From contig NZ_VFPG01000001.1 of the NCBI RefSeq assembly GCF_006716565.1, forward strand, positions 1,550,001-1,614,000: a stretch of 64,000 nt of DNA, read 5' to 3'. Position 1 is the first letter of the stretch; each line of letters starts with the position of its first letter. A model generated the notes under the pieces. The model made no database searches and was not told the origin of the DNA. It saw only the letters and a program-made list of their open reading frames with translations. This document shows, piece by piece, positions 34,345 through 54,012 of the stretch. The stretch comes from Nocardia bhagyanarayanae (GTDB taxonomy: Bacteria; Actinomycetota; Actinomycetes; Mycobacteriales; Mycobacteriaceae). The position numbers and the translations under genes were made by a program.

Positions 34345-34435
34345 GGGTTCCTCCTGCTCGGTGTGCAGTCCGCATGCACTCGCTTGTTGCGCTAGAGCCT
34401 AGAGACAGGCACCGACGCTGACGAGCGCGGTGGAA

Positions 34436-34723: not shown

Positions 34724-34754
34724 GGACCAATCACCTCCTGTGGACTAGGAAACG

Positions 34755-34773
34755 GCCACGGACGGTCCGTGGC
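34755..34773 (-). promoter_or_regulatory. Hairpin with CCG loop in the rpsF leader (possible S6:S18 site)
   Basis: On the coding strand GCCACGGA and TCCGTGGC form an 8-bp stem closing a CCG loop, 32 bases before the rpsF start. S6:S18-binding leaders upstream of rpsF in other bacteria expose a CCG triplet, so this is a reasonable candidate, though full agreement with that fold was not checked. Confidence 0.35.
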
Positions 34774-34811
34774 AGGAGGGTTCGTTGCGTCAGCAACCCG
34801 ACAAGGCTACA

Positions 34812-35350
34812 TGATGGGGGCGGGTTTACCTGCCCGGGGGTTGGTTCTCCGAATGCGTGCCTGCGACGGGAGAACACGGTCTGCTCGTGGGCCGTCTCCG
34901 CACAAGTGCACCTGCGGGGGCGGGTGTGCCAGCTCATGAGGTGGTTCTCTGGGTGCGTGCCTGCGACGGGAAAGGACTCGCTTGCTCGTGGGCCGTCTCC
35001 GCACAAGTGCAACTGCCGGGGGCGGGGGCGGGGACGGGTGTACCTGCCCAGGGGTGGTTCTCCGAATGCGTGCCTGCGACGGGAGAACACGGTCTGCTCA
35101 TGGGCCGTCTCCGCACAAGTGCACGCCGGGGTGGGAGCGGGGGCGGGTGTGGCTGCTCATGGGGTGGTTCTCTGGGTGAGTGTCTGCGACGGGTAAGGGA
35201 CTGGCTTGCTCTCGTGGGCCGTCGCCGCGCGAGTGCACCTGCCGGGGGCGGGTTTACCTGCCCGGGGGTGGTTCTCCGAATGCGTGCCTGCAACGGGAGA
35301 ACACATGGCCTGCTCTTGCGCCGTACCCGCACAAGTGCACCTGCCTGGGG
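34812..35350 (+). repeat. Five tandem copies of a ~100-bp dispersed repeat
   Basis: The core GGTTCTC recurs at 34843, 34943, 35056, 35166 and 35270, each followed by GCCTGCGACGGG, then a TGCTCGTGGGCCGTCTCCGC-like block and CACAAGTGCACCTG. Spacing is 100-113 bp. Copies 1, 3 and 5 share one variant of the central part (GAGAACACGGTCTGC) and copies 2 and 4 another (AAGGACTCGCTTGC), so the array looks like two and a half copies of a double unit. Some copies can form a hairpin from GTTCTCC and GGAGAAC. Frames run through it on both strands but have no family resemblance. No gene is supported in 34724-35401. Confidence 0.85.
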
Positions 35351-35401
35351 TGGGGGTTTGCGTCATGACGCGGCGCGGGTACCGCACATAAGGTGGTCTG
35401 C

Positions 35402-36784: not shown

Positions 36785-36811
36785 CCACGGACCCCGCACC
36801 ACCCCCTGGAG

Positions 36812-37044
36812 GGTGTACTTGTGCGTAGACGGCCCACAAGCAGACCGTTCTTTCCCGTTGGCAGGCACTCCCCCGGAGAACCACCTTTGGGCAGGCGCAC
36901 CTGTCCCCACCACCCGTTAGCAAGGCACACCCGCTCCCGCCTTGGCGGGTGTACTTGTGCGTAGACGGCCCACAAGCAGACCGTTCTTTCCCGTTGCCAG
37001 GCACTCCCCCAGAGAACCAACCTTTGGCAGGTACACCTGCCCCA
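36812..37044 (-). repeat. Two inverted copies of the ~100-bp dispersed repeat
   Basis: Read on the minus strand, 36812-36904 and 36949-37039 give the same order of blocks as the array before the GT87 gene: GTGGTTCTC-like, GTGCCTGCCAACGGGAAAGA, CGGTCTGCTTGTGGGCCGTC, then GCACAAGTACAC. Cores are 136 bp apart. The two copies are closer to each other than to the upstream five. No gene lies in 36785-37059 apart from this. Confidence 0.8.
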
Positions 37045-37059
37045 GGCACACTTGGGCGC

Positions 37060-38022
37060 ATGCTGCAAATGCGGATCCTCTCTCCCGCGGCGCTGACCGA
37101 CGACGTGCTCGAGATCCTCGACCGGGACACCGCGGTGAGCGGGCTTGCCGTCATGCGCGGGTCCTCGCTGAAACCGCCCGGTGATCTGGTGCTCGCGGAC
37201 GTCGCGCGGGAAGCGGGCAACGACATCATCGACAAGTTGCGCGCGCTCGGCGTGCACAAGCACGGGAGCATCGAATTCGACCAGGTGCGAACCTGGATGT
37301 CGCGCAGCGGTTTCGACGCCGAGATGCGCACGCCGGGCAGCAGCGCGGACGCGGTGGTGTGGGCCGAGGTCGCGCAGCGGTCCTACGAGGAAACCGAGCT
37401 GAACTGGACCTACCTGAGCTTCATGACGATGGCGACGGCGATCGCCGCCATCGCGATCGTGCTCGATTCGCAGATCCTGGTCATCGGCGCGATGGTGCTC
37501 GGTCCGGAGTTCGGCGCGATCGCCGCGCTCGGCGTCGCGCTGGTGCGCCGCCGTTTCGTGCTGCTCGGCCACGCCGCGCGCACCTTGCTGCTCGGTTTCA
37601 CCGCGGCGATCGCGGTGACGTTCCTGCTGGTGCTGATCGGTCGCGGGCTGGGTTGGATCACCATCGAAGACGTGACGGGCCCGCGGCCGAGCACGGCGTT
37701 CATCTACACGCCGGACAAGTGGTCGTTCATCGTCGCGGTGATCGCCGCCGCCGCGGGCGTGCTCGCCCTCACCTCGTCGAAAGCGGCGGGCCTCGCGGGT
37801 GTGTTCATCTCCGTGACCACGGTGCCCGCCGCAGGCAACATCGCGCTCGGCGCGGCTTTCGGTGTCGGCGAGGCGATTTGGGGGAGCACCTTGCAGCTGG
37901 TGCTCAACCTCTCCGGCATGGCGTTCGCCGGGTGGGCCACCCTGGCCCTCCAGCAGGCGGTGTGGTCGCGCGTCTCCGTGCGCCGCGCCAGGGCGCTGAG
38001 CAAGCCCTACCGAATGCTGTAG
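37060..38022 (+). CDS. DUF389 membrane protein
   Basis: 320 residues. A soluble N-terminal domain (1-125) with LSPAALTDDVLEILDRD is followed by about six membrane helices; the first membrane segment has the DUF389 signature LVIGAMVLGPEFG and later ALTSSKAAGLAGVFISVTTVPA. DUF389 proteins are widespread, with unproven transport or stress roles. ATG 37060 chosen; in-frame sequence upstream lies in the repeat. It stops 3 bp before the convergent TerA-like gene. Confidence 0.85.
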   Translation: MLQMRILSPAALTDDVLEILDRDTAVSGLAVMRGSSLKPPGDLVLADVAREAGNDIIDKLRALGVHKHGSIEFDQVRTWMSRSGFDAEMRTPGSSADAVVWAEVAQRSYEETELNWTYLSFMTMATAIAAIAIVLDSQILVIGAMVLGPEFGAIAALGVALVRRRFVLLGHAARTLLLGFTAAIAVTFLLVLIGRGLGWITIEDVTGPRPSTAFIYTPDKWSFIVAVIAAAAGVLALTSSKAAGLAGVFISVTTVPAAGNIALGAAFGVGEAIWGSTLQLVLNLSGMAFAGWATLALQQAVWSRVSVRRARALSKPYRML

Positions 38023-38025
38023 CCG

Positions 38026-38649
38026 TCACTTGCTCGCGCTGTTCCACTGCATCCCCCAGCGGTAGGCCTCGTCGATGTGCCGCTGGGTTCCGTTGATGTA
38101 CTGCACTTCTCGGTGCACGGTGATTCCGCGGCCGTTGTTCTGGAGCAGGGCGACGGCGCAGGAGCGGGCGCCGTCGACCGGGGAGTCGAGGCGCATCTCC
38201 ACCTGCGGTCCGTTGCTGGGGAACAGGGTGACCACGCCGTCGGCGGCCGCCCAGTTCGGCACGCCCTCGTAGATGAAGGCGAAAATCAGGATGCGCTTGA
38301 ACAATTCGGGCCGGGCGAGATCGATGTGCATGTTCTCGCCCGACGTGACGGCGCCGCTGCGGTCGTCGCCGTCGAGCTGGATGTACGGCTCGCCCTCCAG
38401 CGAACCGAAGTTCTCGCCGACCGCCTGCACGACACCTTTGGCGCCGTCGGCCAGTTCGTAGAAGCAGCCGAGGTCGAGATCGACCGGCTTGGACCTGCGG
38501 AAGAATCCCTTGGCGGTCCGCGACCAGTTCAGATTGACCCGCAAGACCCCTTGCCGCTCACCGGGTTTGGTGAGGTTGATGGTCGGCGTCGCCTTGGACA
38601 GCGTCACCTTCGCCGAATTCGCACCGCCGGACTGCTGCTCGGACGCCAT
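38026..38649 (-). CDS. TerD-domain protein (TerA-like)
   Basis: 207 residues with one TerD-type domain after a short N-terminal TerA-like region (KVTLSKATPTINLTKPGE). The calcium-binding positions appear as PVDLDLGCFYEL and the acidic loop LDGDDRSGAVTSGENMHIDL. TerD-fold proteins bind calcium and associate with membrane and metabolite modules in tellurite, phage and oxidative stress resistance. The ATG 38649 gives the family start. First of three minus-strand Ter genes; the DUF475 gene is upstream of it across a hairpin. Confidence 0.88.
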   Translation of the reverse strand: MASEQQSGGANSAKVTLSKATPTINLTKPGERQGVLRVNLNWSRTAKGFFRRSKPVDLDLGCFYELADGAKGVVQAVGENFGSLEGEPYIQLDGDDRSGAVTSGENMHIDLARPELFKRILIFAFIYEGVPNWAAADGVVTLFPSNGPQVEMRLDSPVDGARSCAVALLQNNGRGITVHREVQYINGTQRHIDEAYRWGMQWNSASK

Positions 38650-38675
38650 GCGCGGTCCCCCTCGGGAAAAGAGAA

Positions 38676-38714
38676 GCGGCAACGGCTTCCTCCGTCCGGA
38701 GGGGCCGCTGCCGC
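38676..38714 (-). terminator. Hairpin between the DUF475 and TerA-like genes
   Basis: GCGGCAACGGC pairs with GCCGCTGCCGC (one mismatch), enclosing an inner CCTCCG-T-CCGGAGG stem, just after the DUF475 stop and before the TerA-like start. Confidence 0.55.
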
Positions 38715-38742
38715 GTCGAGTTCGTCGGCTGCCTGCCGAAAA

Positions 38743-39846
38743 TCAGCCTACCGGCGTGACAGCTCGCTCGTTCTCGAGTTCCTCCTCGTCGCCGCCCTCG
38801 CGCTTGTTGCGAAGCACGCTGCTGATGAACGCGGCGCCGATGAACGCAACACCGATCAGACCGGTGACGAGCTCGTTGACGTGCACGCCGATCGAGATCA
38901 GCAGGATCGCGGCGAGCGCGCCGATCGCCCAGTGCGCGCCGTGCTCCAGGTACACGTACTCCGAGAGCGTGCCCTTGCGCACCAGGTACACCGTGATGGA
39001 CCGGACGAACATGGCGCCGATCAGGCCGAGGCCGAGCGCGATGATGATCGGGTCCGAGGTGATGGCGAACGCGCCGATCACGCCGTCGAAGGAGAACGAG
39101 GCGTCCAGCACCTCGAGGTAGAGGAACAGGAAGAAGCCCGCCTTACCGGTGGCCTTGGCCAGCTCCGACGGTCCGCCCGCGTGCTCCTCGGTGTGGAACA
39201 TCGAGCCGAGCCCGTCGACCGCGATGTAGACGATCATGCCGAGTACGCCCGCGGCCAAGACGGTGGCGCGCTTGTCGTCGGGGGCCAGGAACTCCGCGGT
39301 CAGGATCAGGCCCGCGCCCGAGACCACGACCGAGAGCATGTCGAGCTTGCCCGCCGCCGCCAGCGGCCGCTCCAGCCAGCCGAGCCAGGTGATCTCCCGC
39401 TCCTCGAAGACGAAGTTCAGGAACAACAGCGCGAGGAACATGCCGCCGAACGCCGCGATCTGCGGGTGCGCGTCGGTGAGCAATGTCTCGTAGCTCGGGC
39501 TGCCGTCGGGGAAGTACGGCGCGTCACCCGCGGGCGGGTTGAGCGCGAGATCGAAAGCTTCCACCGGATTCAGACCCGCGGTGATCCACACGATCGCCAG
39601 CGGGAACACCAGGCGCATGCCGAAGACGGCGATGAGCACACCGATGGTCAAGAAGATGCGCTGCCAGAAATCGCTCATCCGCTGCAGGACGGTGGCGTTG
39701 ATGACGGCGTTGTCGAACGACAGGGAGACTTCGAGGATGCCCAGGATCGCGCACAGCGCGAGGGCGGTGGGGCCACCGTACAGGAACGCCACTACCAGGG
39801 ACGCCACGGTGACGAGGCCGGACAGGCCGAAGATGCGCAGGACCAC
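38743..39846 (-). CDS. DUF475 integral membrane protein, TerC-like
   Basis: 367 residues with about nine membrane helices. The early motif ILEVSLSFDNAVINATVL and later LEVLDASFSFDGVIGAFAI are the paired acidic signatures of the TerC/DUF475 superfamily, thought to move metal ions or to anchor TerD-type proteins at the membrane. GTG start. Being within the Ter locus supports a role as its membrane component. Confidence 0.9.
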   Translation of the reverse strand: MVLRIFGLSGLVTVASLVVAFLYGGPTALALCAILGILEVSLSFDNAVINATVLQRMSDFWQRIFLTIGVLIAVFGMRLVFPLAIVWITAGLNPVEAFDLALNPPAGDAPYFPDGSPSYETLLTDAHPQIAAFGGMFLALLFLNFVFEEREITWLGWLERPLAAAGKLDMLSVVVSGAGLILTAEFLAPDDKRATVLAAGVLGMIVYIAVDGLGSMFHTEEHAGGPSELAKATGKAGFFLFLYLEVLDASFSFDGVIGAFAITSDPIIIALGLGLIGAMFVRSITVYLVRKGTLSEYVYLEHGAHWAIGALAAILLISIGVHVNELVTGLIGVAFIGAAFISSVLRNKREGGDEEELENERAVTPVG

Positions 39847-39959
39847 GCGTGGACCTTTCGTGAATGGGAACTGAAACGGCGAGATCGATACCAGCGTGGC
39901 CGTTGAACCGCCGGATGTCCAACGAATGCGACCAGCGCGATAGCTGCCCCGGTCGCACG

Positions 39960-39991
39960 ACGAGGGGGCTCGTCAGGGCGAGCCCCCTCGT
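39960..39991 (-). terminator. Terminator after terD
   Basis: A perfect 13-bp stem (ACGAGGGGGCTCG and complement) with a TCAGGG loop, 16 bp beyond the terD stop codon. Confidence 0.8.
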
Positions 39992-40007
39992 GTTGAGCGT
40001 GTCTTCG

Positions 40008-40583
40008 TTAGACGTTCACGCCGTAGTCACGGGCGATGCCCGCCAGGCCGGAGGCGTAGCCCTGGCCGATGGCGCGGAACTTCCACTCGGCGCCGTTGCG
40101 GTACAGCTCGCCGAAGACCATGGCGGTCTCGGTCGAGGCGTCCTCGCTCAGGTCGTAGCGGGCCAGCTCGGTGCCGTTGCTGCGGTCCACGACGCGGATG
40201 TAGGCGTTGCGCACCTGACCGAACGACTGCTGACGGGTGTCGGCGTCGTAGATCGAGACGGGGAAGAAGATGCTCTCGATGGTCGGCGGGGTGTTGGCCA
40301 GGTCGACGTTGATGACCTCGTCGTCGCCCTCGCCCTCGCCGGTGCGGTTGTCGCCCGCGTGCTCGATGGCGCCCTCCGGCGAGCGGAGGTTGTTGAAGAA
40401 CACGAAGTGCTGGTCGCTCAGCACCTTCTTGTCGCCACCGGTCGCGATCGCGCTGGCATCCAAGTCGAAGTCGGTACCGGTAGTGGTCCGAATATCCCAC
40501 CCCAGGCCGACGGAAACAGCAGTCAGGTTAGGCGCCTCCTTGGTCAGCGAGACGTTGCCGCCCTTGGACAAACTGACACCCAT
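40008..40583 (-). CDS. terD: Tellurium-resistance protein TerD
   Basis: A 191-residue canonical Ter[21 protein letters not shown] at the start, the calcium ligands in FDLDASAI and the block [17 protein letters not shown], and the end [12 protein letters not shown] are diagnostic. Cytoplasmic or membrane-peripheral, calcium-binding, needed for Ter-type stress resistance. ATG 40583; the frame runs on upstream without meaning. Divergent from the coiled-coil gene and the biosynthetic operon, so the 144-bp spacer probably controls both. Confidence 0.96.
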
Positions 40584-40727
40584 GCGGGAATCCCTTTCAT
40601 TAGTCCGTCTGTGGTCCCAGCATGTCCGAATCGCCGGGTACGACTTACGACAGTAGTAGGTTTCGGCGAACTTGCGTAGGAACTGGGGGAACCCCCGGCG
40701 AACAGGAAGATCTCCTACCATCGGGGC

Positions 40728-41945
40728 GTGGTAGGGCGCAGGCGGAGCTGGTTCCGGTCGTCCGGGAACAGCGAATGGATCGAGCAGGCACGAGCCCGGC
40801 TCGCGGACGCGTTCCTCGACATGGACCGGCGGCAGAGCGCGGCGGAGGCCGCGGTGCACGCCTCGGAGGAAGTCTTCTCCGAGCGGGGGTTCGCGGCGGC
40901 GTGGGATCCGGTGCGCGGCCGCTGTTACGACGCGGCGGGCGCGTATCTGGCGCTGACCGAGGAACTCGAGGCGGCCCAGCGCGACGGCACGAGCGTCGCC
41001 GACGGTCAGCAGCGCGCCGACGCCGTCACGCGGCAGTTGGTCGAGGCCGCACGCGCGGTGGACGAGTTCTATCGAAGCAACCAGACCCGGCTCGAGGAAG
41101 CCGTCGCGATCGTTCGCTCGGTGCCGCAGCTGGCGCAGCAGGTGAAGGTCGCGGCCGCCGCGGTGCGCGGGCAGGCCGCCGAATCCGAGTACGCCGAATA
41201 CCCCTCGGTGCGGCAGCGCGCGGCCGCCGTGGATGAGGCGCTGGTCACACTGGAATCGGCAGGTGCGAGCGGTGGTTCGGGCGCCGTCCGCACGGCAGCG
41301 AACCGCTTGGACGCGGCCACCAAGGAATTGGCAGAAGCGTTGGCGCAGGCCCCATCTCGGCTCGGCGCCGCGAATACCGCGCTCACCTCGGTGGATACCA
41401 GGCTGGCCGCCGTACGGAACCGGTCCGAGCGGGTCGGGCCGGCCTACTCGGCCTTGCTGCGCGAGTTCAATGCTGCGAGTTCGGCGGATCTGGCCAACAA
41501 TGGGCGGGAAAGCCAGCAAGCCATCGATGCCGCCGCCGACGCTCTCGCCAGGGCACGCGCCGCATTGGTCGCCAAGAATCCGGAGTCAGCCCTTGAATTG
41601 ACCGCTACCGCGCGGGGGAGCCTCGGCGCGGCCGAGCAGCTGATCGACGCCGTCACCAAGCGGCTCGAACTGTTGCGCTCGGTTCGCGAGGACCCGCAAG
41701 ACAAGGCCAAGGCCGTACGATTCAGGTTGCGGGACGCACAGATGCTCGCGGTGAGTCGGGGGCTCGCGGGCGAATGGGGATCTGTGCTGGACGCACAGGC
41801 CGAACGAATCGAACGAATCACCGAAACACTGTCGGGGCGGCACCCCGATTACTGGGCCTATGTGGCGGAACTGGATGCCGTCACCGAATTCATAGCCGGG
41901 GTAGTGGATCGAATGAGAAAACAAGCAGGACCACGACGAGAATGA
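40728..41945 (+). CDS. Coiled-coil protein of the Ter locus, function unknown
   Basis: 405 residues, Ala/Glu/Arg-rich and almost wholly alpha-helical, with long heptad-like stretches (about 90-330). No signal peptide, membrane helix or catalytic motif. I do not recognise a named domain. It starts (GTG) divergently from terD and is followed 13 bp later by the HpcH/HpaI-like gene, so it is the first gene of the four-gene Ter metabolic operon. A scaffold linking Ter components is a reasonable guess only. Confidence 0.8.
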
Positions 41946-41958
41946 GGACGGAGCACCG

Positions 41959-43170
41959 ATGACCGCTCCTGTCGCCGTCCAGCAGGAAGTATCCCTGCGG
42001 AAGCGACTGCCGCTGCGCCACTTTCGGCAGCTGCAAGGCCCCGACGCCAGACATCTCTTCCACCGCCAGCCCGAACCGTTCGGTGAGCACACCGACCGGG
42101 ACCTGCTCGCGTACGGCCTCGGCGCGACCCTGTACGCGCCCGCCACCAGACCCGATCTCGCCGAGACCATCCGGCGCCGCGCCGACCGCGGCGTCTGCTC
42201 GATGGTGATCGACCTCGAGGACGCCGTCGCCGACGACGAGGTGGAGCTCGCGAAGAAACAGGCCGTCGACGCGCTCGGCGAGCTGGCGGCCAGCTCGGAA
42301 CCCAACCCGTTGTTGTTCATTCGCGTGCGCGAGGCGAGCGCCATCGGCGAGATCGTCGACCAACTCGGGGCGGGCGCGCCTGCGCTGACCGGCTTCGTCT
42401 TCCCGAAGTTCGACAGCTCCACCGGGCGCGCCTATCTGGACGCGCTGCAAGCGGCGACCGAGCGCTTGGGCAGGCCGCTCTATGGCATGCCGGTGCTCGA
42501 ATCGGCGGCCCTGGTGCACCGCCAGACCCGCGATCAGGAGCTGACCAACATCGCGTCCATGCTGGCCGAACACCGGGAGCGAGTGCTCGCGGTGCGGGTC
42601 GGCGCCACCGACATGTGCTCGACCTTCGGCATCCGCCGCGACCGCGACCTGACCATCTACGACGTGCGGGTGGTCGCCGACGTCATCGCCGACATCGTGA
42701 ACTACCTGGGCCGCGCCGACGGCACCGGTTTCGTGATCACCGGACCGGTGTGGGAGTACTTCGCCGATCACGAGCGGATGTTCCGGCCGCTGCTGCGCAC
42801 CGCGCCGTTCGAGGAGTCCGACGCCGTGCCATTTCGTCAGTACCTGGTCAGCCGGGATCTGGACGGACTGCTGCGCGAGATCACCCTGGACCGGGCCAAC
42901 GGCATCCAGGGCAAGACGGTGATCCACCCCTCGCACGTCGCGGCGGTGCACGCGCTGTCGGTGGTGTCGCACGAGGAGTACTCCGACGCGCTCGACATCC
43001 TTCAGGTCGACGTGGGCGGGGTGGCGGCCTCGGGTTACCGCAACAAGATGAACGAGATGCGGCCACACCGCAGTTGGGCCCGGCAGACGCTGCTGCGGGC
43101 GCGCGTATTCGGGGTGGCGAACAAGGGAGTTTCTTTCGTGGATCTGCTCACGGCGTTGGTGAAGGTATGA
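41959..43170 (+). CDS. HpcH/HpaI aldolase / citrate-lyase-beta-like protein of the Ter module
   Basis: 403 residues, TIM-barrel. The start of the barrel has LYAPATRPDLAETIRRRADR and the metal-binding MVIDLEDAVADDEVELA; later PVLESAALVH and the catalytic-region DRDLTIYDVRVVAD. The family cleaves or forms carbon-carbon bonds on CoA thioesters or 2-keto acids with Mg2+. In Ter loci this protein belongs to the predicted small-molecule pathway together with PRTases and a HAD phosphatase, which are its next neighbours here. Its TGA overlaps the ATG of a micro-reading-frame (ATGA) leading to the PRTase gene. Confidence 0.88.
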   Translation: MTAPVAVQQEVSLRKRLPLRHFRQLQGPDARHLFHRQPEPFGEHTDRDLLAYGLGATLYAPATRPDLAETIRRRADRGVCSMVIDLEDAVADDEVELAKKQAVDALGELAASSEPNPLLFIRVREASAIGEIVDQLGAGAPALTGFVFPKFDSSTGRAYLDALQAATERLGRPLYGMPVLESAALVHRQTRDQELTNIASMLAEHRERVLAVRVGATDMCSTFGIRRDRDLTIYDVRVVADVIADIVNYLGRADGTGFVITGPVWEYFADHERMFRPLLRTAPFEESDAVPFRQYLVSRDLDGLLREITLDRANGIQGKTVIHPSHVAAVHALSVVSHEEYSDALDILQVDVGGVAASGYRNKMNEMRPHRSWARQTLLRARVFGVANKGVSFVDLLTALVKV

Positions 43171-43288
43171 GCGAACGAAGTGAGCGAATCATGTGCCAGC
43201 GTGCATCGCGCATGCCGGAGCCGAGCGTCAGCGAGGCGCAGGCATGAGTGGTAGGAGCCGTCCGAGCGGTAGTGAGGCGCGGGCATGA
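43167..43288 (+). repeat. MIRU-like intergenic element with two ATGA-coupled micro-frames
   Basis: The first micro-frame, 43167-43247 (26 codons, begins MSERSERIMC), overlaps the stop of the HpcH gene; the second, 43244-43288 (14 codons, MSGRSRPSGSEARA), overlaps its stop and also the ATG of the PRTase gene. All three junctions are ATGA. The repeated GAGCGAACGAAGTGAGCGA wording is like mycobacterial MIRU elements, which insert between overlapping genes and keep translational coupling. Confidence 0.7.
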
Positions 43289-45996
43289 CCTCGCCGTGGG
43301 CGACCCGAACACTCGGTATCGAATTGCATCATCTGTCTTGTCACGGCACCAGTTCCGACGGCGTGCTGCCCGCCGAGTTGTCGATCGACATGCTGATCGA
43401 GCCCGGTTTGCGGCGCAATCCGCGCCGGGCGCACCTGCTGGTCTCGACGGTGCTCGGCAAGCACCTGCCCACCGATCCGCGGGTGGTGCTCGACGCGGGC
43501 AACCGGCTCGGTGATCTGGTGCGCGCCGTCCTCGACGAGCGCGCCGGCGAACCGGCGGCTCCGGCCGTCGTGCTCGGATTCGCCGAGACCGCAACGGGTC
43601 TCGGTCACACCGTCGCGGCGCGAATCGGCGCGCGGTGCTACCTGCATTCGACGCGCCGCGACGTGCCGGAGGCCGACACCCTCGCCGGTTTCGAAGAGGG
43701 GCACTCGCACGCCACCTCGCACCTGCTGCAACCCGCGCCCGCCGAGATCTTCCGAAACGACCTGCCGTTGGTGCTGGTCGACGACGAGATCTCCACCGGC
43801 GCGACGGCGATCGACGCGGTGCGCGCGCTGCACGACTTCGCGCCGCGCTCGCACTATGTGCTCGCCTCGTTGGTGGACATGCGCACCGACGCGGACCGGG
43901 CCGTATTCGAAAGCGCGGCGGCCGAACTCGGCGCCCGCATCGACACCGTGTGCTTGGCCGCAGGATTGACCAAGCTGCCCGACGGCCTGATCGAGGCCGT
44001 CACGTCGATGCCCGATCCCGCGCTGAATCCTGTCGCGCCGCAGCGTGGTTCGTTCGGTCGCCTCGAACTGCCATGGCCCGATTCGGTGCCCGAGGGCGGA
44101 CGGCACGGGATACTGGACTCCGACACCCCAGCCTTCGAATCGGCCGTCGCCGCGGCGGCCGCGGTGCTGACCGCGCGCCTGGCCGTCGACGCGCCGGATC
44201 GTCCGGTCATCGTGCTCGGGCACGAGGAGCTGATGTACCTGCCGCTGCGGCTGGCCGCCGCGCTGGCCGAGTCGGGTGTCCCGACCAGGTATCAGACGAC
44301 GACCCGCTCGCCCGCCTACGTCCTGGACGAGCCGGGGTACCCGCTACGGCGCGGATTCCGTTTCGTCGCACCGGAACCCGACGCGGACGCGCCGCGCTAT
44401 CTCTACAACGCCTGCTGGCCGGAGGATTTCGACGCGGAGCTGCGCGAGCTCACGGCGCAGCGTGCGGTCGAGGACATCCTCGACAACGATGCGCGGATCT
44501 CGGGAGATGGCGTGCGGGCCGCCGGCGGAGGTGCGCGAGACGCGGGAGCCGACGACGACGACGCGCGGGCCGCGCGCGATGGCGTGACCGGTTCGGACTC
44601 GTCCGGCGGTACCGGAGTCGATCCGGTTCTCGTCGTGGTACTCGATCCGCCCGCCGACACGCCGGAGCTCATCGCGGAGGGCGGTTTGGTCGACGTTCTC
44701 ACCGCATCGGGGGCCGACGTGCTCGTCGCGCTCGTGCCGGGCGCCGATCCGCGTAAGTTGGACATCGAGCGGCGTGCGACAGCCAAGGCCGCGACCGTCG
44801 ACGAGGAGGTCGAGACGAACGGCTCCGTGCGCACCGAGACGTTGCCGGAAGCGACCGGGGAGCCTCGGCTACCCGCACCCCTGCACGGGCCGGACTTCGG
44901 CTCGTACGCGGCCGACGAGGTCTCCTGGCTGCTGAAGGACCTGTCCGACGCGGACCTCGAGGCCGACGTCGCCGAGCGGGAGCGCCGCATCCAAGCGGGT
45001 GTCGCGCACTACGCGGAGTCGCTGCCGATCGAATACCAGCCGGACGCCGCTTATCGCGGTCTGTTCGACGAAGTGCTCGCGGAGAGCGCCGAGCGGCTTG
45101 CCCTCGCCGTGGCCACCGTCTCCGAACTCGTGGTCGCCGAGCGCGGCGAGGACATCGTGCTGGTGTCGCTCGCGCGCGCGGGCACGCCGGTCGGGATCCT
45201 GATGAAGCGCTGGTTGCGCTCGGGCCGGGGCGACGGGCTGCCCGGCCTCGATGTGCCGCACTACGCGGTATCCATCGTGCGGGACCGCGGCATCGACGCG
45301 ACCGCGCTGGATTACCTTGCCCGGCATCACGATCCGTCCTCGGTGGTGTTCGTAGACGGCTGGACCGGCAAGGGCGCGATCACCAAGGAACTCACCGAGG
45401 CGCTCGACGCCTATCACGCGGCGGGCGGCGCCCGATTCGACGACGAGCTCGCCGTGCTCGCCGATCCCGGCCACTGCGTGCGCACCTACGGCACCCGTGA
45501 CGATTTCCTGATCGCCTCGGCGTGCCTGAATTCCACCGTGTCCGGGCTCATCTCGCGCACCGTGCTGAACGACACGCTCATCGGGCCGGGCGATTTCCAC
45601 GGCGCGAAGTTCTATCGCGAACTGGCGGCCGACGACGTCTCCGGCCGCCTGCTCGACGCCGTCACCGGCGCTTTCGACGCCGTGCGCCCGCGCGTGCCCG
45701 CCGAGCTTGCCGCGGTGCTCGGCTCGGATCGGACTCCCACCTGGACCGGCTGGTCCTCGGTGGAGAAGGTGCGTGCCGAATACGGCATCGCCAGTGTGAA
45801 TTTCGTGAAGCCGGGGGTCGGCGAGACCACCCGGGTGCTGCTGCGGCGCGTGCCGTGGCGGGTGCTGGTCCGCGAGGCCGACGCCCCCGAGCACGCGCAC
45901 ATCCGGATGCTCGCCGCCGCGCGCGGTGTGCCCGTCGAGGTCGTCCCCGATCTGGCGTACTCGTGCATGGGATTGATCAAGGAAGTACCGAAGTAG
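43285..45996 (+). CDS. Four-domain Ter-module protein: PRTase + TRSP + PRTase + PELOTA
   Basis: 903 residues combining domains that are commonly separate in Ter loci. Residues 1-240: phosphoribosyltransferase (PRTase_2 type) with the PRPP loop VLVDDEISTGATA at 163-175. About 280-530: TRSP domain with the naming motif TTRSP (339-343). An acidic, low-complexity linker (405-445) interrupts it. About 535-800: second PRTase (PRTase_1/StiP-like) with loop VFVDGWTGKGAIT near 688-700. About 815-903: PELOTA-like RNA-binding domain (VNFVKPGVGETTRVLLRRVP). Comparative genomics predicts that such proteins make a nucleoside-like metabolite. ATG overlaps the preceding micro-frame; the HAD gene starts immediately after its stop. 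Confidence 0.88.
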   Translation: MTSPWATRTLGIELHHLSCHGTSSDGVLPAELSIDMLIEPGLRRNPRRAHLLVSTVLGKHLPTDPRVVLDAGNRLGDLVRAVLDERAGEPAAPAVVLGFAETATGLGHTVAARIGARCYLHSTRRDVPEADTLAGFEEGHSHATSHLLQPAPAEIFRNDLPLVLVDDEISTGATAIDAVRALHDFAPRSHYVLASLVDMRTDADRAVFESAAAELGARIDTVCLAAGLTKLPDGLIEAVTSMPDPALNPVAPQRGSFGRLELPWPDSVPEGGRHGILDSDTPAFESAVAAAAAVLTARLAVDAPDRPVIVLGHEELMYLPLRLAAALAESGVPTRYQTTTRSPAYVLDEPGYPLRRGFRFVAPEPDADAPRYLYNACWPEDFDAELRELTAQRAVEDILDNDARISGDGVRAAGGGARDAGADDDDARAARDGVTGSDSSGGTGVDPVLVVVLDPPADTPELIAEGGLVDVLTASGADVLVALVPGADPRKLDIERRATAKAATVDEEVETNGSVRTETLPEATGEPRLPAPLHGPDFGSYAADEVSWLLKDLSDADLEADVAERERRIQAGVAHYAESLPIEYQPDAAYRGLFDEVLAESAERLALAVATVSELVVAERGEDIVLVSLARAGTPVGILMKRWLRSGRGDGLPGLDVPHYAVSIVRDRGIDATALDYLARHHDPSSVVFVDGWTGKGAITKELTEALDAYHAAGGARFDDELAVLADPGHCVRTYGTRDDFLIASACLNSTVSGLISRTVLNDTLIGPGDFHGAKFYRELAADDVSGRLLDAVTGAFDAVRPRVPAELAAVLGSDRTPTWTGWSSVEKVRAEYGIASVNFVKPGVGETTRVLLRRVPWRVLVREADAPEHAHIRMLAAARGVPVEVVPDLAYSCMGLIKEVPK

Positions 45997-46839
45997 ATGC
46001 TATTGGTAAGACCACGAAGACAAGCGCTAGTCGCCACCGATCTCGACCGCACGATGATCTACTCGCGCAACGCCTTCAGCACCGCCTCGGAGGTGCCGAT
46101 GGTGTGCGTGGAGCATCTGGAGGGCGCGCCGCTGTCGTTCATGACGACGGCCGCGGCGCTGCGCATGCAGACGCTCACCCAACCGGCGGCCGTCATCCCG
46201 ACGACTACCCGGACCATCAAGCAGTTCAATCGGATTCGACTACCCGGGGCGCCTTGGCGCTACGCGATCACGAGCAACGGCGGCAACATCCTGGTCGACG
46301 GCGTCCCGGATATGCGCTGGCGCATCGACATCGACGTGAAGGTGCGCCAGAGCGGCGCCACCCTCTCGGAGGTGAGCGCCGAGCTACGCGCCAGGATCGA
46401 CGACTCCTGGGTGACCAAGTTCCGCGTCGCCGATCATCTCTTCTGCTACCTGGTGGTCAAGCCCAAGGCGGTGCCCGAGGGCTTCCTCGCCGAATGGGAT
46501 GCCTGGTGCCGCGAGCGCGGCTGGTCGGCCTCCCAGCAGGGCCGCAAGATCTACACGATGCCGCAGTCGGTGTGCAAGAGCGTCGCGGTCGCCGAGGTGC
46601 GCCGCCGTCTGATGGAATCCGGCGAGCTCACCGGCGAAGCCAAGACTTTCGCCGCCGGTGACGGCGCACTGGACGCCGAAATGCTGCGCGCCGCCGACTC
46701 GGCCATCCGGCCGCGGCACGGCGAGCTCGAACAACTCAACTGGACCAGCCCCAACCTCACCATCACCCGCGCCACCGGCATCCTCGCCGGCGAGGAGATC
46801 ATCAACTGGTTCATCAAGGCGGCGCCGCTCGCCGACTGA
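45997..46839 (+). CDS. HAD-superfamily phosphatase of the Ter module
   Basis: 280 residues. HAD motif I is VATDLDRTMIYS (Asp nucleophile near residue 15), motif II the Ser in YAITSNGG, motif III Lys near VCKSVAVAEVR and motif IV AAGDGALDAEML. A long cap (about 105-190) follows motif II, as in type C2 HADs. Expected to dephosphorylate the product of the PRTases. Its ATG abuts the TAG of the PRTase gene, so it is the last gene of the operon. Confidence 0.88.
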   Translation: MLLVRPRRQALVATDLDRTMIYSRNAFSTASEVPMVCVEHLEGAPLSFMTTAAALRMQTLTQPAAVIPTTTRTIKQFNRIRLPGAPWRYAITSNGGNILVDGVPDMRWRIDIDVKVRQSGATLSEVSAELRARIDDSWVTKFRVADHLFCYLVVKPKAVPEGFLAEWDAWCRERGWSASQQGRKIYTMPQSVCKSVAVAEVRRRLMESGELTGEAKTFAAGDGALDAEMLRAADSAIRPRHGELEQLNWTSPNLTITRATGILAGEEIINWFIKAAPLAD

Positions 46840-46897
46840 GGTCGTACCCGTCTCCGGTCGTGCGCGAGATGCGGACGACCGTTCGCGGGCTTCGGGT

Positions 46898-46928
46898 GCG
46901 GACCGGCGCGAACGCCGTGCCGGTCCGC
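46898..46928. terminator. Bidirectional hairpin between the HAD and AIM24 genes
   Basis: GCGGACCGGC and its complement GCCGGTCCGC form a 10-bp stem with an 11-nt loop in the spacer between the two convergent operons. Confidence 0.6.
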
Positions 46929-46933
46929 CGAAC

Positions 46934-47695
46934 TCAGTACTGCTGCTGACCCGCGAGCTGCTGGGCGATCACACCCTGAAGGCGTTGCAGGCCACCGACG
47001 GTGACGCCGCTCTGCAACTGGCCCTCGATGGTGCGCACGAGCACCGAGTCGCTCATGACCTTCTCGCTGGACTGGATGAGCACCGTCCCGGCGCCGGTGA
47101 AATCGAACTGCCGCTCCTCACCGGAGTTCACGCCGAAGCGCGCCGCGCCCGCCGCGAGGAAGCTGGAGACCCACTGGTGGTCGTAGTGGTGGCTGGGGGA
47201 GGGGCAGTCGGCCCAGCCGACCAGCGATTCCGGGTCGACCCGCAGCGGCGGCTCGGCGAAGATCACCGGCCCGTTGGACGAGGCGAGGAACTTGCCCGTG
47301 CCGATCAGGGTGAGGAATCCGGGCACGATCGACTGCTTCAGCGCGAGACCAGGCTCGAAGGCGAGCAGGTTGGCCGCGCGGATGGTGAGGTTGCCGTCGT
47401 CGAGATCGAAGGAATTGATGTCGTAGCCGCGGTCGCCGATGATCAGCTTGCCGTGGCCCTCGGCCACGACGTAGTCGTTGGTGAACAGCGGCGCCGAGAA
47501 CTGCTGCGACACCATGTGCATCAGCCCACCGTGCAGGCCGTGGGTGAGCAGCTGGAAGTTCATCTGGCCGTAGTAGGCGATCATCGCGCCCTTGCGCATG
47601 AACCACGGCTTGTTGAGGTCGATGCAGTAGGCGTAGCTGTTGCCCGGGATGTTGTCGCTCTCGCCGAGCGTCATCGGGTTCAGGATCTGGGCCAT
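46934..47695 (-). CDS. AIM24-family protein (third of three)
   Basis: 253 residues with the AIM24/TraB-like beta-helix pattern: ARIRAANLLAFEPGL-type strands, DPESLVGW and a final AGTVLIQSS strand. AIM24 (DUF124) proteins are predicted lipid- or membrane-associated beta-rich scaffolds and are often linked with TerD genes. Two bases separate its ATG (47695) from the stop of the preceding AIM24 gene. A poorly conserved upstream stretch is excluded. Confidence 0.82.
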   Translation of the reverse strand: MAQILNPMTLGESDNIPGNSYAYCIDLNKPWFMRKGAMIAYYGQMNFQLLTHGLHGGLMHMVSQQFSAPLFTNDYVVAEGHGKLIIGDRGYDINSFDLDDGNLTIRAANLLAFEPGLALKQSIVPGFLTLIGTGKFLASSNGPVIFAEPPLRVDPESLVGWADCPSPSHHYDHQWVSSFLAAGAARFGVNSGEERQFDFTGAGTVLIQSSEKVMSDSVLVRTIEGQLQSGVTVGGLQRLQGVIAQQLAGQQQY

Positions 47696-47697
47696 GG

Positions 47698-48390
47698 TCA
47701 CAACTTCTCTTCGGAGGCCTGCACGTAGACGACACCCTGTCCGACGCAATGCAATTGCATCGCCTCGCCGGAGCCGCGCCCGACCGCGTCACGCCAGCTC
47801 AGCGCGGTCTTCAGTTCGGTCTGCACATTGCCGTAGGCGGCGACGAACGCCTGCGGATCGACCACGATCGGATTCGGCCCGCCCACTTGCAGTTCCAGGA
47901 AGCCGCCGTGCGCGAGCAGTACCGCGGCGCCGTGCCCGGACAGCTGGGTGGTGAACATGCCCTGCCCGGTCAGCGCGCCGGAGGCCGCGCCGCGCAGCGC
48001 GCCCATCAGACCGCCGCCGCCACCGCCGCCGGAACTCGCCACCGAGACGATCGAACTCTGCAGACCCGCGGTATTGGCAAGCAGCCGTGAGGCTTCCACC
48101 CGCAGCGACGCGCCGGGCTGCATCTGCACGACGTGCACCTCGAGCCCCGCGAAGCCGTAGTGCACCTGGCCGTTGCCCTGCGCGAGCATGGTGCGCTCGT
48201 GCTCGCCCGCCATCATGCGGCCCGCCATGCCCATCAGCCCGCCGCCGCCCATGCCCTGCGCGCCCGGAATCTGGTGCGGCGCAAAGGAAACGTCGCCGCT
48301 GTAGTAGAGCATCGCGCCGCTGCGCGCGACGACGCCGCCCGCCATGCCGACGTCGACCTTGACGACCTTGCCGTTGACTTTCTCGAACAT
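47698..48390 (-). CDS. AIM24-family protein (second of three)
   Basis: 230 residues. AIM24-like strands include LRVEASRLLANTAGLQ, VDPQAFVAAYGNVQ and the C-terminal GQGVVYVQASEE. A Gly-rich loop (residues 117-127) and a Met/Gly-rich segment (about 45-62) are unusual insertions. Middle gene of the minus-strand AIM24 trio, 10 bp after the first. Confidence 0.83.
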   Translation of the reverse strand: MFEKVNGKVVKVDVGMAGGVVARSGAMLYYSGDVSFAPHQIPGAQGMGGGGLMGMAGRMMAGEHERTMLAQGNGQVHYGFAGLEVHVVQMQPGASLRVEASRLLANTAGLQSSIVSVASSGGGGGGGLMGALRGAASGALTGQGMFTTQLSGHGAAVLLAHGGFLELQVGGPNPIVVDPQAFVAAYGNVQTELKTALSWRDAVGRGSGEAMQLHCVGQGVVYVQASEEKL

Positions 48391-48400
48391 CCCCGGCCCC

Positions 48401-49024
48401 TTACCGTTCCGCAGGCTGGATCAACACGACGCCCTGGCCTTCCCAGCGCAGCGAGAACGCCTCGCCCGCATCCTGTCCGACCATGGTCCGCCACGAGACA
48501 TCGGTGACGAAGGACTGGTTCAGGTTGCCCTGCGCGGCGACGAACGCGTCCGGATCGACCACCAGCGGATACTGCGGCGACACCTCCAGGTGGATCAGCG
48601 GGCCGCCCGCGGAGAGCAGCGCGACCTGTCCCTGGCCGGTGACGGTGGTGGTGAACAGCCCGGCCCCGGTCGACGCGCCGCGCAAGCCCGCGAAACGCAC
48701 GTCGGTGCGCAGGTTCCCGGCGAAGGCGAGCAGTTGCTGCGATTCCACCTGCAGCGTCTCGCCGTTCAGGTTCACCACCGACACGTGCTGGCCGTTGACC
48801 GCGAAGAAGACCCTGCCGTTGCCTCCGCATTCCATCAGCGACAACTTCTCGCCGGTGGCGCGCCGCTTGAGCCCGGCGAGCACGCCGTCGCCTCCGCCGA
48901 ATCCGGCGGCCTTGAACTGCACGTTTCCTTCGTAGGCGATCATCGACCCGGCGATCGCGCGGACACTCGTTCCGGCGAGATGGGCCTCGACCACCTTCTT
49001 CGACTGTTCGAAAAGTTGTGCCAT
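48401..49024 (-). CDS. AIM24-family protein (first of three)
   Basis: 207 residues; VESQQLLAFAGNLRTDV, LVVDPDAFVAAQGNLNQSF and WEGQGVVLIQPAE are the repeated AIM24 features shared with the next two genes. It heads the trio and is divergent from the double-TerD gene across 181 bp. The trio looks like tandem duplication followed by divergence. Confidence 0.83.
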   Translation of the reverse strand: MAQLFEQSKKVVEAHLAGTSVRAIAGSMIAYEGNVQFKAAGFGGGDGVLAGLKRRATGEKLSLMECGGNGRVFFAVNGQHVSVVNLNGETLQVESQQLLAFAGNLRTDVRFAGLRGASTGAGLFTTTVTGQGQVALLSAGGPLIHLEVSPQYPLVVDPDAFVAAQGNLNQSFVTDVSWRTMVGQDAGEAFSLRWEGQGVVLIQPAER

Positions 49025-49205
49025 CTGGCTGTTTGCCCTGCTGTCGCGTTAATCGGAACATGGGTCGTCGTCACATTCCGCTGCCAGCGGTCACTGTAAC
49101 GGACACGCGCGATTCGCAACGGCCCGCGCGGCGTTTACTTCGGCGGTGGCCGGGCCGTTTCTCGTAGAGTGGCAACCGTACGCACCGACAAGCGAAGGGT
49201 CGACC

Positions 49206-50501
49206 TTGTCCGCAACACTCGCCAAGGGCCAGAACGGCCCGCTGGCCACCAACGATGTGGTGATCTCCGTCCAGCTGTCGGCACCGGCGGACCTGTCCGC
49301 ACTGCTGGTGACCGAGCGGGGCAAGGTCCGCTCGGACGCGGACTTCGTCTTCTTCAACCAGCCCAACGGCCCCGGCGTCAACCTGCAGCCCGCACCCGCG
49401 GGGCAGCCCGCCTCGCTCGCCGTGTCGCTGAACGCGGTGCCCGCCGATATCGACCAGATCCGCGCGGTGATCACCCTCGACGACGCCTCCAGCAATTTCG
49501 GCAGGACCGCGCCGCCGGTGGCCGTCGTCTCCGACGCCGGCGGTAATCCGTTGTACGAGTATCGAATCGACGGGCTCGACACCGAGTCCATCGTGATCGC
49601 GCTCGAGCTGTACCGACGCCAGGGTTCCTGGAAGGTGCGCGCCGTCGGCCAGGGCTACGCCGGTGGATTCGCGGCGCTGGTCACCGATCACGGCGTGACC
49701 GTCGACGAGGCGCCCGCGGCCCAGCAGGCCCCGCCGCAGGCGCCGCCGACGCATCATCCGCAGCAGACGGCCCCGGCCCAGCAGTCGCCGCAGTACGCGT
49801 CCACCGGCTCGTACCCGCCGCCGCCCGGCCCCGGATACGCGCCCCCGGCGGGTGGTGGCTACCCGCCGCCGCCCGCCCCGCCGCAACAGGCCGCGCAGCC
49901 GACGGGCGAGGTGAGCCTGAGCAAGGACCGCCCGGTCAGCCTGCAGAAGGGCCAGCGCGTCACCCTGCGCAAGGAGGGCGGCCAGGCGCTGACCTTCGTG
50001 AAGATGGGTCTGGGCTGGGATCCGGTGCAGACCCGCGGCATGTTCGGCAACCGCACCGTCGACATCGACCTGGACGCCTCGGTGATCATGTTCGCCGACG
50101 GTAACCCGGCCGACTACGCCTACTACGGTCAGCTGTCCTCCAAGGACGGCTCGGTGCGCCATCAGGGCGACAACCTGACCGGCGAGGGCGAGGGCGACGA
50201 CGAGGTCATCCTGGTCGACCTGACCAGGATTCCGGCCCACATCACCTCGCTGGTGTTCATCGTGACCTCCTACAAGGGCCACACCTTCGAGCAGGTGCGC
50301 AACGCGTTCTGCCGCCTCGTCGACGGCTCCAACAACGCCGAGCTGGCCAGGTACACCATGGCGGGCGGCATGCCGTTCACCGCGATGGCGATGGCGAAGG
50401 TGTTCCGCGTCGGCGGCGACTGGAAGATGCAGGCGCTCGGCGAGGGCTTCCAGGCCAAGCATCCGGGCGAGGCGATTCCCCAGCTGGGCCGCTTCCTCTG
50501 A
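49206..50501 (+). CDS. Double TerD-domain protein with proline-rich linker
   Basis: 431 residues. Residues 1-175: TerD-like half lacking the DxDLD calcium residues but ending VRAVGQGYAGGF. 180-245: Pro/Gln/Ala-rich linker. 250-431: canonical TerD domain with IDLDASVIMF and [18 protein letters not shown] start at 49206 is chosen (MSATLAKGQ), with GAAGGG six bases before it; the open frame upstream begins before the RBS. It precedes the second fused TerD gene by 31 bp, so the two are probably one operon. Confidence 0.88.
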   Translation: MSATLAKGQNGPLATNDVVISVQLSAPADLSALLVTERGKVRSDADFVFFNQPNGPGVNLQPAPAGQPASLAVSLNAVPADIDQIRAVITLDDASSNFGRTAPPVAVVSDAGGNPLYEYRIDGLDTESIVIALELYRRQGSWKVRAVGQGYAGGFAALVTDHGVTVDEAPAAQQAPPQAPPTHHPQQTAPAQQSPQYASTGSYPPPPGPGYAPPAGGGYPPPPAPPQQAAQPTGEVSLSKDRPVSLQKGQRVTLRKEGGQALTFVKMGLGWDPVQTRGMFGNRTVDIDLDASVIMFADGNPADYAYYGQLSSKDGSVRHQGDNLTGEGEGDDEVILVDLTRIPAHITSLVFIVTSYKGHTFEQVRNAFCRLVDGSNNAELARYTMAGGMPFTAMAMAKVFRVGGDWKMQALGEGFQAKHPGEAIPQLGRFL

Positions 50502-50532
50502 GGCAGGCTCACCGGCGGTACGCGCGAAGAGC

Positions 50533-52119
50533 ATGGCGGACAACGTGATTCAACTGAAGGCGGGCCAGAACATCCCGCTGACCGGCGACGTGCTGCGATT
50601 CAGTGCGAAAGCTTCTGCGGCGCTGGATGTTTCCGCGCTGGTGGTGGCGGAGAACCTGCGCGTGTTCGACGCGTCGGACTTCGTCTTCTACAACCAGCCG
50701 AGCACCGGCGGCGTCGCGCTGGACGGTGACGAGGTGAGCATCACCCTGGCCGAGGTGCGCGCCGACGCCAAGGCGGTGCTGCTGGTGGTCAGCGCCGATC
50801 CCGCGGCGCCGGGCGCCGGCGAGCTCGGGCCGGTGACCGCGTCGCTCGCCGAGAACGGCACGGTCACAACGGAATTCGCGATCGCGCCCGCGGCGGGCGA
50901 GGCGGCGTTGATCTGTCTCGAGGTCTACCGGCGCGGGGACGCGTGGAAGGTGCGCGCGGTCGGCCAGGGCTACGCGGGCGGGCTGCCGGTGCTGCTGCCC
51001 GCGCACGGCGTCGAGGTGTCCGGTGGGCCGGATGCCGCGGCGCACGCCCCGCATCCCGCGGGCGACCGCGACGCCATCGCCGGGCCGCAGCAGGCCCAGC
51101 ATCCGACCGGCGCGCCCGCGCTGGAGGTGTCGCACGGCCTGGAACGGCTGTGGATGATCTTCGAGGACGCGGCCCGCTCGGCCGCCGCGCTCATCTCGGC
51201 ACGGGACTACGCGGCGAAACGGCTGGACGAGGAACTCTCGGCAGCGGTGTCCGATCCCGCGACCAGGAACACCCCGGTCGCCGAGGCCAAGCGCCAGGAG
51301 GCGCAACGCCGCAGCGACGAACTCGTCGCGGTCGCCGAGGGCAATCACCGGCGCGACAGCGAGCATCTGATGCGCGAGCTCGCCGAGGCAGACCGGTTGC
51401 TGCCGCCCGCGCTGGCCTCTTGGTCGTCACCGGCCTGGGAGGGCCGCGCCAAGCCGAGCGACGGTATCCGACTGGGTGAGCTGTACGCGATCGAACGCGG
51501 GCCGCTGCGCATCCCGTACTGCGTGCCGGTGCCGCTGACCAGGCCGCTGTGGATCGACACCGAACATTCGGCGGCGGTCGTTCCGGTGGTCGGCGCGCTG
51601 CTCGCCCGGCTCCTCGCGTCCGATCCCGGCAGGCGCACCCGCATCGATGCCATCGACCTGACCGGGGCGTTCACCGGACTGCTCGCGCCGCTCGGACCGG
51701 TGCTGAACGGTCCGCCGATCACCGACCACGGCGATATCTCGGCGCGGCTGCAAGCCCTCGTCGACGCCGCGGAGCTGGCCGAGATGGCTTACAACAGCGG
51801 TGCTTTCACACCACCCGCTGAGCACCGGGTGTTGCTCGCGGCCGACTTCCCGCATGGTTACCAGGCCTCCGACGCCCAGCGCATCACGGCGCTGACCCTG
51901 CGCGGCGATCTGATCGGGCTGTCCATCGTGATCGTCGGCAGCGACGAATCGGAATCGCAAGACGGCACCGTCGCGGCACTGTCGCAGGCCTGCCGTCATC
52001 TGCCGACCGTGGCGGACACCCCGCTGTTCGACCCGTGGACCGGCAGCGCCTGGCAGTTGGAGCTCGATCTGTTGCCGCGCGATCCGGACCGGGCGGCGAA
52101 GCTGTTGCGTTCGGAGTAG
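50533..52119 (+). CDS. TerD-domain protein with FtsK-like C-terminal region lacking Walker A
   Basis: 528 residues. 1-165: TerD-like half of the same type as in the preceding gene (VRAVGQGYAGGL), without calcium ligands. 195-290: helical region. 300-525: a segment whose layout recalls the FtsK/SpoIIIE-type core (RTRIDAIDLTGAFTGLLAPL; VLLAADFPHGYQASDAQRIT; LRGDLIGLSIVIVGS), but with no GKT/S P-loop where one would be expected. So it may be a structural or nucleotide-free descendant. This reading is pattern-based and should be taken as tentative. Confidence 0.7.
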   Translation: MADNVIQLKAGQNIPLTGDVLRFSAKASAALDVSALVVAENLRVFDASDFVFYNQPSTGGVALDGDEVSITLAEVRADAKAVLLVVSADPAAPGAGELGPVTASLAENGTVTTEFAIAPAAGEAALICLEVYRRGDAWKVRAVGQGYAGGLPVLLPAHGVEVSGGPDAAAHAPHPAGDRDAIAGPQQAQHPTGAPALEVSHGLERLWMIFEDAARSAAALISARDYAAKRLDEELSAAVSDPATRNTPVAEAKRQEAQRRSDELVAVAEGNHRRDSEHLMRELAEADRLLPPALASWSSPAWEGRAKPSDGIRLGELYAIERGPLRIPYCVPVPLTRPLWIDTEHSAAVVPVVGALLARLLASDPGRRTRIDAIDLTGAFTGLLAPLGPVLNGPPITDHGDISARLQALVDAAELAEMAYNSGAFTPPAEHRVLLAADFPHGYQASDAQRITALTLRGDLIGLSIVIVGSDESESQDGTVAALSQACRHLPTVADTPLFDPWTGSAWQLELDLLPRDPDRAAKLLRSE

Positions 52120-52197
52120 AGCACGACCGGTTGCGCCGCGGCGCTCGGAAGTGGTCGCTCCAGGCCAGGCGGTCGGCGGCAGGTGGTGCGGTGCCGG

Positions 52198-53931: not shown

Positions 53932-53977
53932 GGAACCCGAGCCTAATAGGTCCGCCCGAACCGACCCCGAGCACAGG

Positions 53978-54012
53978 CCCGCCCCGGGCGGTAGGTCACC
54001 ACCCGGGGCGGG
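53978..54012 (-). terminator. Terminator after ponA1
   Basis: A 15-bp stem (CCCGCCCCGGGCGGT with ACCACCCGGGGCGGG, one G-U) closed by a 5-nt loop, 50 bp after the ponA1 stop and before the GT87 start. Confidence 0.75.

Follow-up and report, generated by a model that had tools for sequence, protein, structure and literature searches.

The locus described here occupies positions 38026-52119 of a 64-kb window, the whole stretch of DNA analysed, from Nocardia bhagyanarayanae, and it joins genes of the Ter type to a biosynthetic unit without an ATP-grasp enzyme. This missing ATP-grasp is real, and it is ordinary for the lineage of the window. Ter loci occur widely, on plasmids as well as in chromosomes. 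We think it reasonably probable that the present one is an actinobacterial Ter variant, in which a four-enzyme biosynthetic unit, with a putative small ribose-containing product that would be sensed by the neighbouring proteins, lies beside and divergent from a unit of TerD, DUF475 (TerC) and TerA-like genes, and in which the ATP-grasp is optional. As the preliminary description, made from the sequence alone, had it, four facing units on alternating strands make up the locus. Unit 1 (minus strand, 38026-40583) holds the TerA-like, DUF475/TerC and TerD genes, and unit 2 (plus strand, 40728-46839) a coiled-coil protein, a C-C bond lyase, a PRTase_2-TRSP-StiP-PELOTA fusion and a HAD phosphatase. 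Three AIM24 genes form unit 3 (minus strand, 46934-49024), while unit 4 (plus strand, 49146-52119) consists of a TerD-TerD gene followed by a TerD gene with an extension.

The biosynthetic unit is led by the coiled-coil gene (40728-41945, plus strand), which precedes the lyase gene on the same strand and at a short distance in 45 fetched loci; its product matched neither Pfam nor NCBIfam. The lyase (41959-43170, plus strand) is of the HpcH/HpaI, CitE-like type (PF15617, C-C_Bond_Lyase, E 3.6e-124; PF03328, 1.2e-7), and its match in the PDB was a citrate lyase beta-like protein (1sgj, 3.6e-7). The fusion gene (43285-45996, plus strand) encodes 903 amino acids (aa) in one frame with four domains above the Pfam cut-off, namely PRTase_2 (aa 37-227), TRSP (270-377), StiP (539-793) and PELOTA_1 (820-900), and the AlphaFold2 model of the protein reached a mean predicted local distance difference test score of 86.5. 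The searches did therefore place the phosphoribosyltransferase (PRTase), TRSP and PELOTA regions that had been named from the sequence. The last gene (45997-46839, plus strand) encodes a HAD phosphatase of the sugar-phosphate type, as indicated by NCBIfam TIGR01486 (1.4e-7, below cut-off) and a PDB trehalose phosphatase (1.6e-6); Pfam gave no match. The family scores are weak, and the protein aligns to the HAD of the two proteobacterial modules described next. All 125 loci that gave a HAD match, among 126 searched, keep its DLDxT motif.

A 2012 comparative-genomic paper on Ter systems reportedly defined these domains. As positive controls we used the loci of Polaromonas (pPNAP04) and Citrobacter (IncHI2A plasmid), which share with the window a C-C lyase, a PRTase with TRSP, StiP with PELOTA and a HAD protein, adjoining TerD and DUF475 or TerC genes. 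The Ter context given to the locus in the preliminary description is borne out, as are the parts it had named, from DUF475/TerC and the lyase to the three AIM24 proteins, by Pfam, NCBIfam and PDB. In both controls, however, an ATP-grasp is the first gene of the module and PRTase and StiP are separate genes, whereas the window has no ATP-grasp and carries both in one protein. The unit in the window is, moreover, led by the coiled-coil gene and followed by three AIM24 genes.

Relatives of the fusion protein, taken as the best 80 of 588 confirmed ones, come from Nocardia, which includes the closest, and from Rhodococcus, Gordonia, Williamsia, Tsukamurella, Streptomyces and others. Lyase, PRTase/StiP and HAD stand in a row in 75 of these 80 loci, and the remaining five start inside the fusion gene. 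In Nocardia lijiangensis the alignment extends from the GT87-like gene upstream as far as the TerD-TerD gene, at which the fetched stretch ends. Identities of the gene set among relatives, by tblastn, range from 28% (coiled coil, Streptomyces) to 99%. Since the gene set recurs in relatives, chance can be excluded, and because the core is found in Nocardia, Rhodococcus, Gordonia, Williamsia and Streptomyces, we regard the locus as a conserved actinobacterial one and no local oddity. Nor is it unusual, since Ter genes and the biosynthetic unit are combined widely among Actinobacteria. The fusion itself is nothing special either and was rejected as such: PRTase_2 and StiP share a frame in 83 of 119 loci, a count in which both proteobacterial controls and some truncated contigs are included, and split loci occur even within Nocardia.

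No ATP-grasp is present in the window, and genome-wide the best score with PF15632 was 29.6 bits, compared to 131 bits for a locus-linked member. A second profile (A1), built from nine linked actinobacterial ATP-grasps and the two proteobacterial ones, gave at best 33.5 bits in this genome. An ATPgrasp_Ter-type enzyme was thus not found, and for this reason we file the locus only as a variant of the Ter-associated module. The same pattern extends through the family, for which we drew an even sample of 151 genomes, on which the bounds for the family depend. StiP was present in 74 of them, in each case with a lyase above 200 bits within 5 kb, at a spacing of 2.0-2.8 kb; a lyase but no StiP was found in two more genomes, one of which is 66% complete. 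None of the 74 StiP genomes has an ATP-grasp in the locus, and only four have one anywhere. The four were the sole matches to profile A1 at 292.9 bits or more in the family sample, with the next score at 46.9 bits. The claim that the whole kit normally contains an ATP-grasp therefore fails for this lineage, while the observation that none was to be seen in the window was correct.

Elsewhere in the order the enzyme is linked to the module in some families. Among 121 genomes of the order sample, 38 have StiP, and in nine of these PF15632 matched inside the fetched locus with 96-134 bits. These linked ATP-grasps fall into two families, f4 (6/11) and f2 (3/10), with 0/5 in the family of the window (f1) and 0/12 in the rest, where some of the genomes sit on short contigs. 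In two more f2 genomes an ATP-grasp lies beside TerD/DUF475 on contigs without StiP, and in one f9 genome it lies on a 6.5-kb contig, so that linkage is not assessable in these three. By tblastn, no ATP-grasp was found within the fetched flanks of the best 80 loci.

The six f4 loci (L095, L100, L113, L115, L123, L125) are close counterparts of the one in the window. Their coiled coil, lyase, PRTase to StiP and HAD genes are ordered and oriented as in the window, but coiled coil and lyase are separated by an ATP-grasp gene, which runs on the opposite strand. We listed the junctions with both genes on the same strand and a spacing of -200 to 3000 bp, counted from the last coding base to the lyase start, with ends extrapolated from alignments. 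Spacing was 1105-1763 bp in the six loci with the ATP-grasp in between, and -57 to +53 bp (median 17) in the 39 loci without it, and another f4 genome (L116) has the short form too. In the window the junction (41946-41958) measures 13 bp from stop to start, equal to 17 on the scale of the list, therefore no gene can hide at the site that the ATP-grasp occupies in the six f4 genomes.

Unlinked relatives of the enzyme do occur. Those of the four family genomes lie on other contigs than StiP, or on the same contig at distances of about 1.0 and 2.6 Mb, and the 18-kb stretches around them gave no match to any Ter or module query. One such stretch was scanned with Pfam, which identified neighbours such as a sigma factor, a YCII protein and an aromatic ammonia-lyase. 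In a further sample of 50 StiP genomes, taken from the best 80 loci (46 Streptomycetaceae and four others), 13 had a match of at least 329 bits, with the next at 82.7 bits; again, no Ter or module match was found in the 13 stretches read, two of which (L071, L073) are on very short contigs where linkage is not assessable. A tree of 27 ATP-grasp sequences, made before the 13 were found and with 12 rows assigned to no group, needs one label change for the nine linked enzymes (86% of bootstrap trees; weak support, 54/90) and places the four unlinked ones of the family outside the linked group. Given the lack of Ter or module matches in the stretches read and, for the four of the family, this position in the tree, we rejected the unlinked ATP-grasps as the enzyme of the locus. 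A distant PF15632 type from several order genomes (L148-L155) was likewise rejected, as it forms its own branch of the tree. Two genomes of the window's genus (L135, positions 7326-12836, and L136) have the same few conserved genes around an unlinked Ter-like ATP-grasp, namely those for an aromatic amino acid ammonia-lyase and a RibD_C protein and an unassigned 263-aa frame; this is perhaps another natural-product cluster.

In the lineage of the window, the core pathway would run without an ATP-grasp, and the enzyme is thus best read as an optional tailoring step. It probably decorates the product, for example by adding an amino acid, and stands outside the core. The other steps can be proposed from the domains. 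The lyase may make or trim a small acid, StiP could carry out a second transfer dependent on phosphoribosyl pyrophosphate (PRPP), though with an altered PRPP motif, and the HAD phosphatase would take off a phosphate. Following a published model, the TerD proteins would sense the product and, together with the TerC-type protein, act under stress on metal traffic or on the membrane. That the product is nucleoside-like and is deployed at the membrane is a published prediction. PMC7824862 proposes that PRTases and HAD enzymes make a threat-signalling nucleoside derivative, which TerB/TerD might sense and to which TerC and others respond at the membrane, and PMC8115787 presents the nucleoside-like product of a plasmid ter locus as a prediction and terms its link to the TerC complex unclear. 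We keep this frame with two changes, that the ATP-grasp is optional and that StiP may transfer ribosyl groups as CriT does.

The second change concerns StiP (44899-45663, plus strand). Its predicted fold (predicted template modelling score 0.92) is that of a type I phosphoribosyltransferase, which supports the PRTase reading in the preliminary description against the current database name, and by one aligner its best solved match is a capsule ribofuranosyltransferase. Loop 3 reads V/I-D-G-W-T-G-K-G in 73 of 73 rows, so that the usual Asp-Asp of the PRPP motif is Asp-Gly, in both proteobacterial sequences as well. Unlike the purine and pyrimidine phosphoribosyltransferases APRT, HGPRT and PyrR, StiP lacks the second Asp of this motif, which thus has no two adjacent acids. 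The PRTase_2 domain of the same protein (43393-43965, plus strand) carries a canonical VDDE motif, with D-D-E kept in 68 of 68 rows. Loop 2 of StiP has an invariant D671, and loop 1 (SLARAGTP) contains no acid. All this agrees, at the level of sequence, with a PRPP enzyme of an unusual kind. The Asp pair is split in CriT as well, where E818 belongs to loop 3 and D680 to loop 1 (PMC10299916). StiP, judged by its sequence, lacks such a second acid in loop 1, in difference to the CriT domain of Bcs3 (8a0c), and CriT was not among the first 50 Foldseek matches, nor was 7shg, a ribofuranosyltransferase from T. composti, among the 50 matches listed for the StiP piece alone.

Known ribofuranosyl transferases of the CriT kind act together with a HAD phosphatase, which takes off the 5-phosphate (PMC11127046, PMC10299916). 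As a speculative and rather doubtful extension, StiP could be neither a protease nor a base phosphoribosyltransferase but a PRPP-dependent, CriT-like ribofuranosyl transferase paired with the HAD enzyme, and would work in the same two steps, ribose-5-phosphate transfer and subsequent dephosphorylation. In that case a ribofuranoside, formed on a lyase-derived acid or on a glycan, would be the Ter metabolite, and most locus-bearing Actinobacteria would complete it without an ATP-grasp.

The current Pfam and NCBI names would instead make StiP a cysteine protease and the module a proteolytic regulator, and of 73 actinobacterial rows, 72 have Cys 731 and 72 have Cys 747. However, no Cys is invariant among six StiP sequences from two phyla: Cys 747 and Cys 894 are absent from both proteobacterial proteins, and residue 731 is Thr in Polaromonas. 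With the predicted fold also pointing to phosphoribosyltransferases, we rejected the protease, which appears highly improbable. Presumably, StiP once carried a PRTase name in Pfam.

The remaining explanations concern the locus as a whole. If the pathway still needs an ATP-dependent ligase, an unlinked ATP-grasp could supply it in trans. Matches above 290 bits in 4/151 family genomes, all four with StiP, and above 329 bits in 13/50 other StiP genomes are compatible with this idea, as are generic ATP-grasp matches in 120 of the 121 order-sample genomes. But 70 of the 74 family StiP genomes, including that of the window, have nothing above 47 bits, the co-occurrence with StiP in all four is not significant and could be chance (P 0.055), and the surroundings of the unlinked genes, as far as read, matched no Ter or module gene, so we judge supply in trans to be unlikely. 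The main alternative builds on TerC proteins as manganese (Mn) exporters. The product would be a metal ligand, a small chelator metalated or exported by TerC/DUF475, and the locus would serve metal homeostasis and not signalling. DUF475 is indeed the second gene of the unit facing the biosynthetic one, and PMC12096827 implicates TerC proteins in metal transport, as Mn exporters, and reports that MeeY enables surfactin export, possibly by metalating surfactin. On the other hand, the domains do not specifically predict chelator chemistry, and we rejected known RNA elements, the Mn riboswitch among them, as nothing reached the Rfam gathering score in 34000-54000. We consider a metal ligand improbable.

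An equally improbable view takes the Ter units and the biosynthetic unit as functionally separate neighbours. It fits with four separate transcription units and with AIM24 genes near the module only in Nocardia and a few others (Gordonia asplenii, G081 and two f16 genomes). It fits, too, with intergenic regions that have no 8-mer in common beyond shuffles; the lowest shuffle count, 18/300 over 15 comparisons, was not taken as signal, and a shared operator between the units was rejected. Against it stands that TerD, DUF475 and the lyase-to-HAD row occur together, in differing orders, in Nocardia, Rhodococcus, Williamsia, Gordonia and Streptomyces, and that the module accompanies TerD and DUF475 or TerC in Proteobacteria too. 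In favour of the Ter variant, divergent TerD and coiled-coil units are found in Nocardia, Rhodococcus, Williamsia and several f4 loci, and Nocardia has a conserved region between them.

The favoured reading, a Ter variant with an optional ATP-grasp, has to be weighed against several observations. The layout is not fixed: the Streptomyces homologue of the coiled coil is encoded past the HAD gene and on the other strand, and Gordonia and Tsukamurella (L048, L061) have TerD and coiled-coil genes that point in the same direction. An unlinked ATP-grasp relative that could act in trans is carried by 17 of the 124 profile-searched StiP genomes, and the profile search could overlook a strongly diverged enzyme. 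The place of the ATP-grasp differs between f2 and f4, and support for one linked group is weak (54/90), so that the enzyme may have been either lost here or gained elsewhere. Finally, the predicted fold of StiP by itself shows no substrate.

Among the other Ter genes, the membrane protein of unit 1 (38743-39846, minus strand) belongs to the DUF475/TerC family by profile (PF04332, E 1.2e-131; PF03741, 1.9e-16; NCBIfam NF010613, above cut-off), and its neighbour (40008-40583, minus strand) is a TerD protein (PF02342, 2.5e-83). The third product (38026-38649, minus strand) had no Pfam match at E 0.01. It is best named TerA-like, of the TerD superfamily, because of its position, kept in many relatives, and its 45% tblastn identity to the gene in the terA position of Citrobacter. 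Of the four TerD-domain genes counted earlier, three stand by Pfam, one of them with two matched stretches, and the fourth is this TerA-like gene. In unit 4, the tandem TerD-TerD protein (49146-50501, plus strand) matched PF02342 at 4.5e-78 and the following one (50533-52119, plus strand) at 9.7e-19. Pfam matched nothing in the roughly 350-aa extension of the latter. Of 25 loci searched, 14 have this extension at 66-80% identity and with a similar end; by eye, it resembles the non-catalytic middle of FtsK/HerA-like proteins. Genome-wide there are 14 TerD matches, spread over both contigs, with three of them on the second (1.44 Mb). The Ter proteins were rejected as listed defence genes after a PADLOC run on nine proteins (AIM24 not included), in which the coiled coil gave only weak JetC matches (E 2.4e-4 and 0.041) that we read as coiled-coil noise.

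The three AIM24 proteins, all on the minus strand, lie at 46934-47695 (PF01987, 6e-15 for the frame from 47749; start set by eye), 47698-48390 (2.8e-28) and 48401-49024 (2.3e-36). Where the TerD and biosynthetic units diverge, the intergenic region (40584-40727) has blocks conserved in an alignment of the window and 25 loci from Nocardia or the window's genus. They include a GGGTAC stretch, which we take to resemble the -10 element of actinobacterial general-stress sigma factors. In the fusion protein, TRSP and the linker (aa 270-511; 44092-44817) form a mostly confident alpha/beta fold in the model, with low confidence at aa 409-443. The flanks (37060-38022, 35393-36784 and 52198-53931) hold a DUF389 membrane protein and, on both sides, glycosyltransferase-like genes, the right one GT87 by Pfam and the left one assigned by eye. 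Several Nocardia have the DUF389 gene beside the HAD gene instead.

In a partial survey of the literature, we found no report that identifies the small-molecule signal proposed for Ter loci. Our results call into question the database name "cysteine protease StiP". One of the proposed enzymes is absent throughout the lineage, and the lyase, the two PRPP-type domains and the phosphatase stay together, which makes the set small enough to rebuild in vitro.

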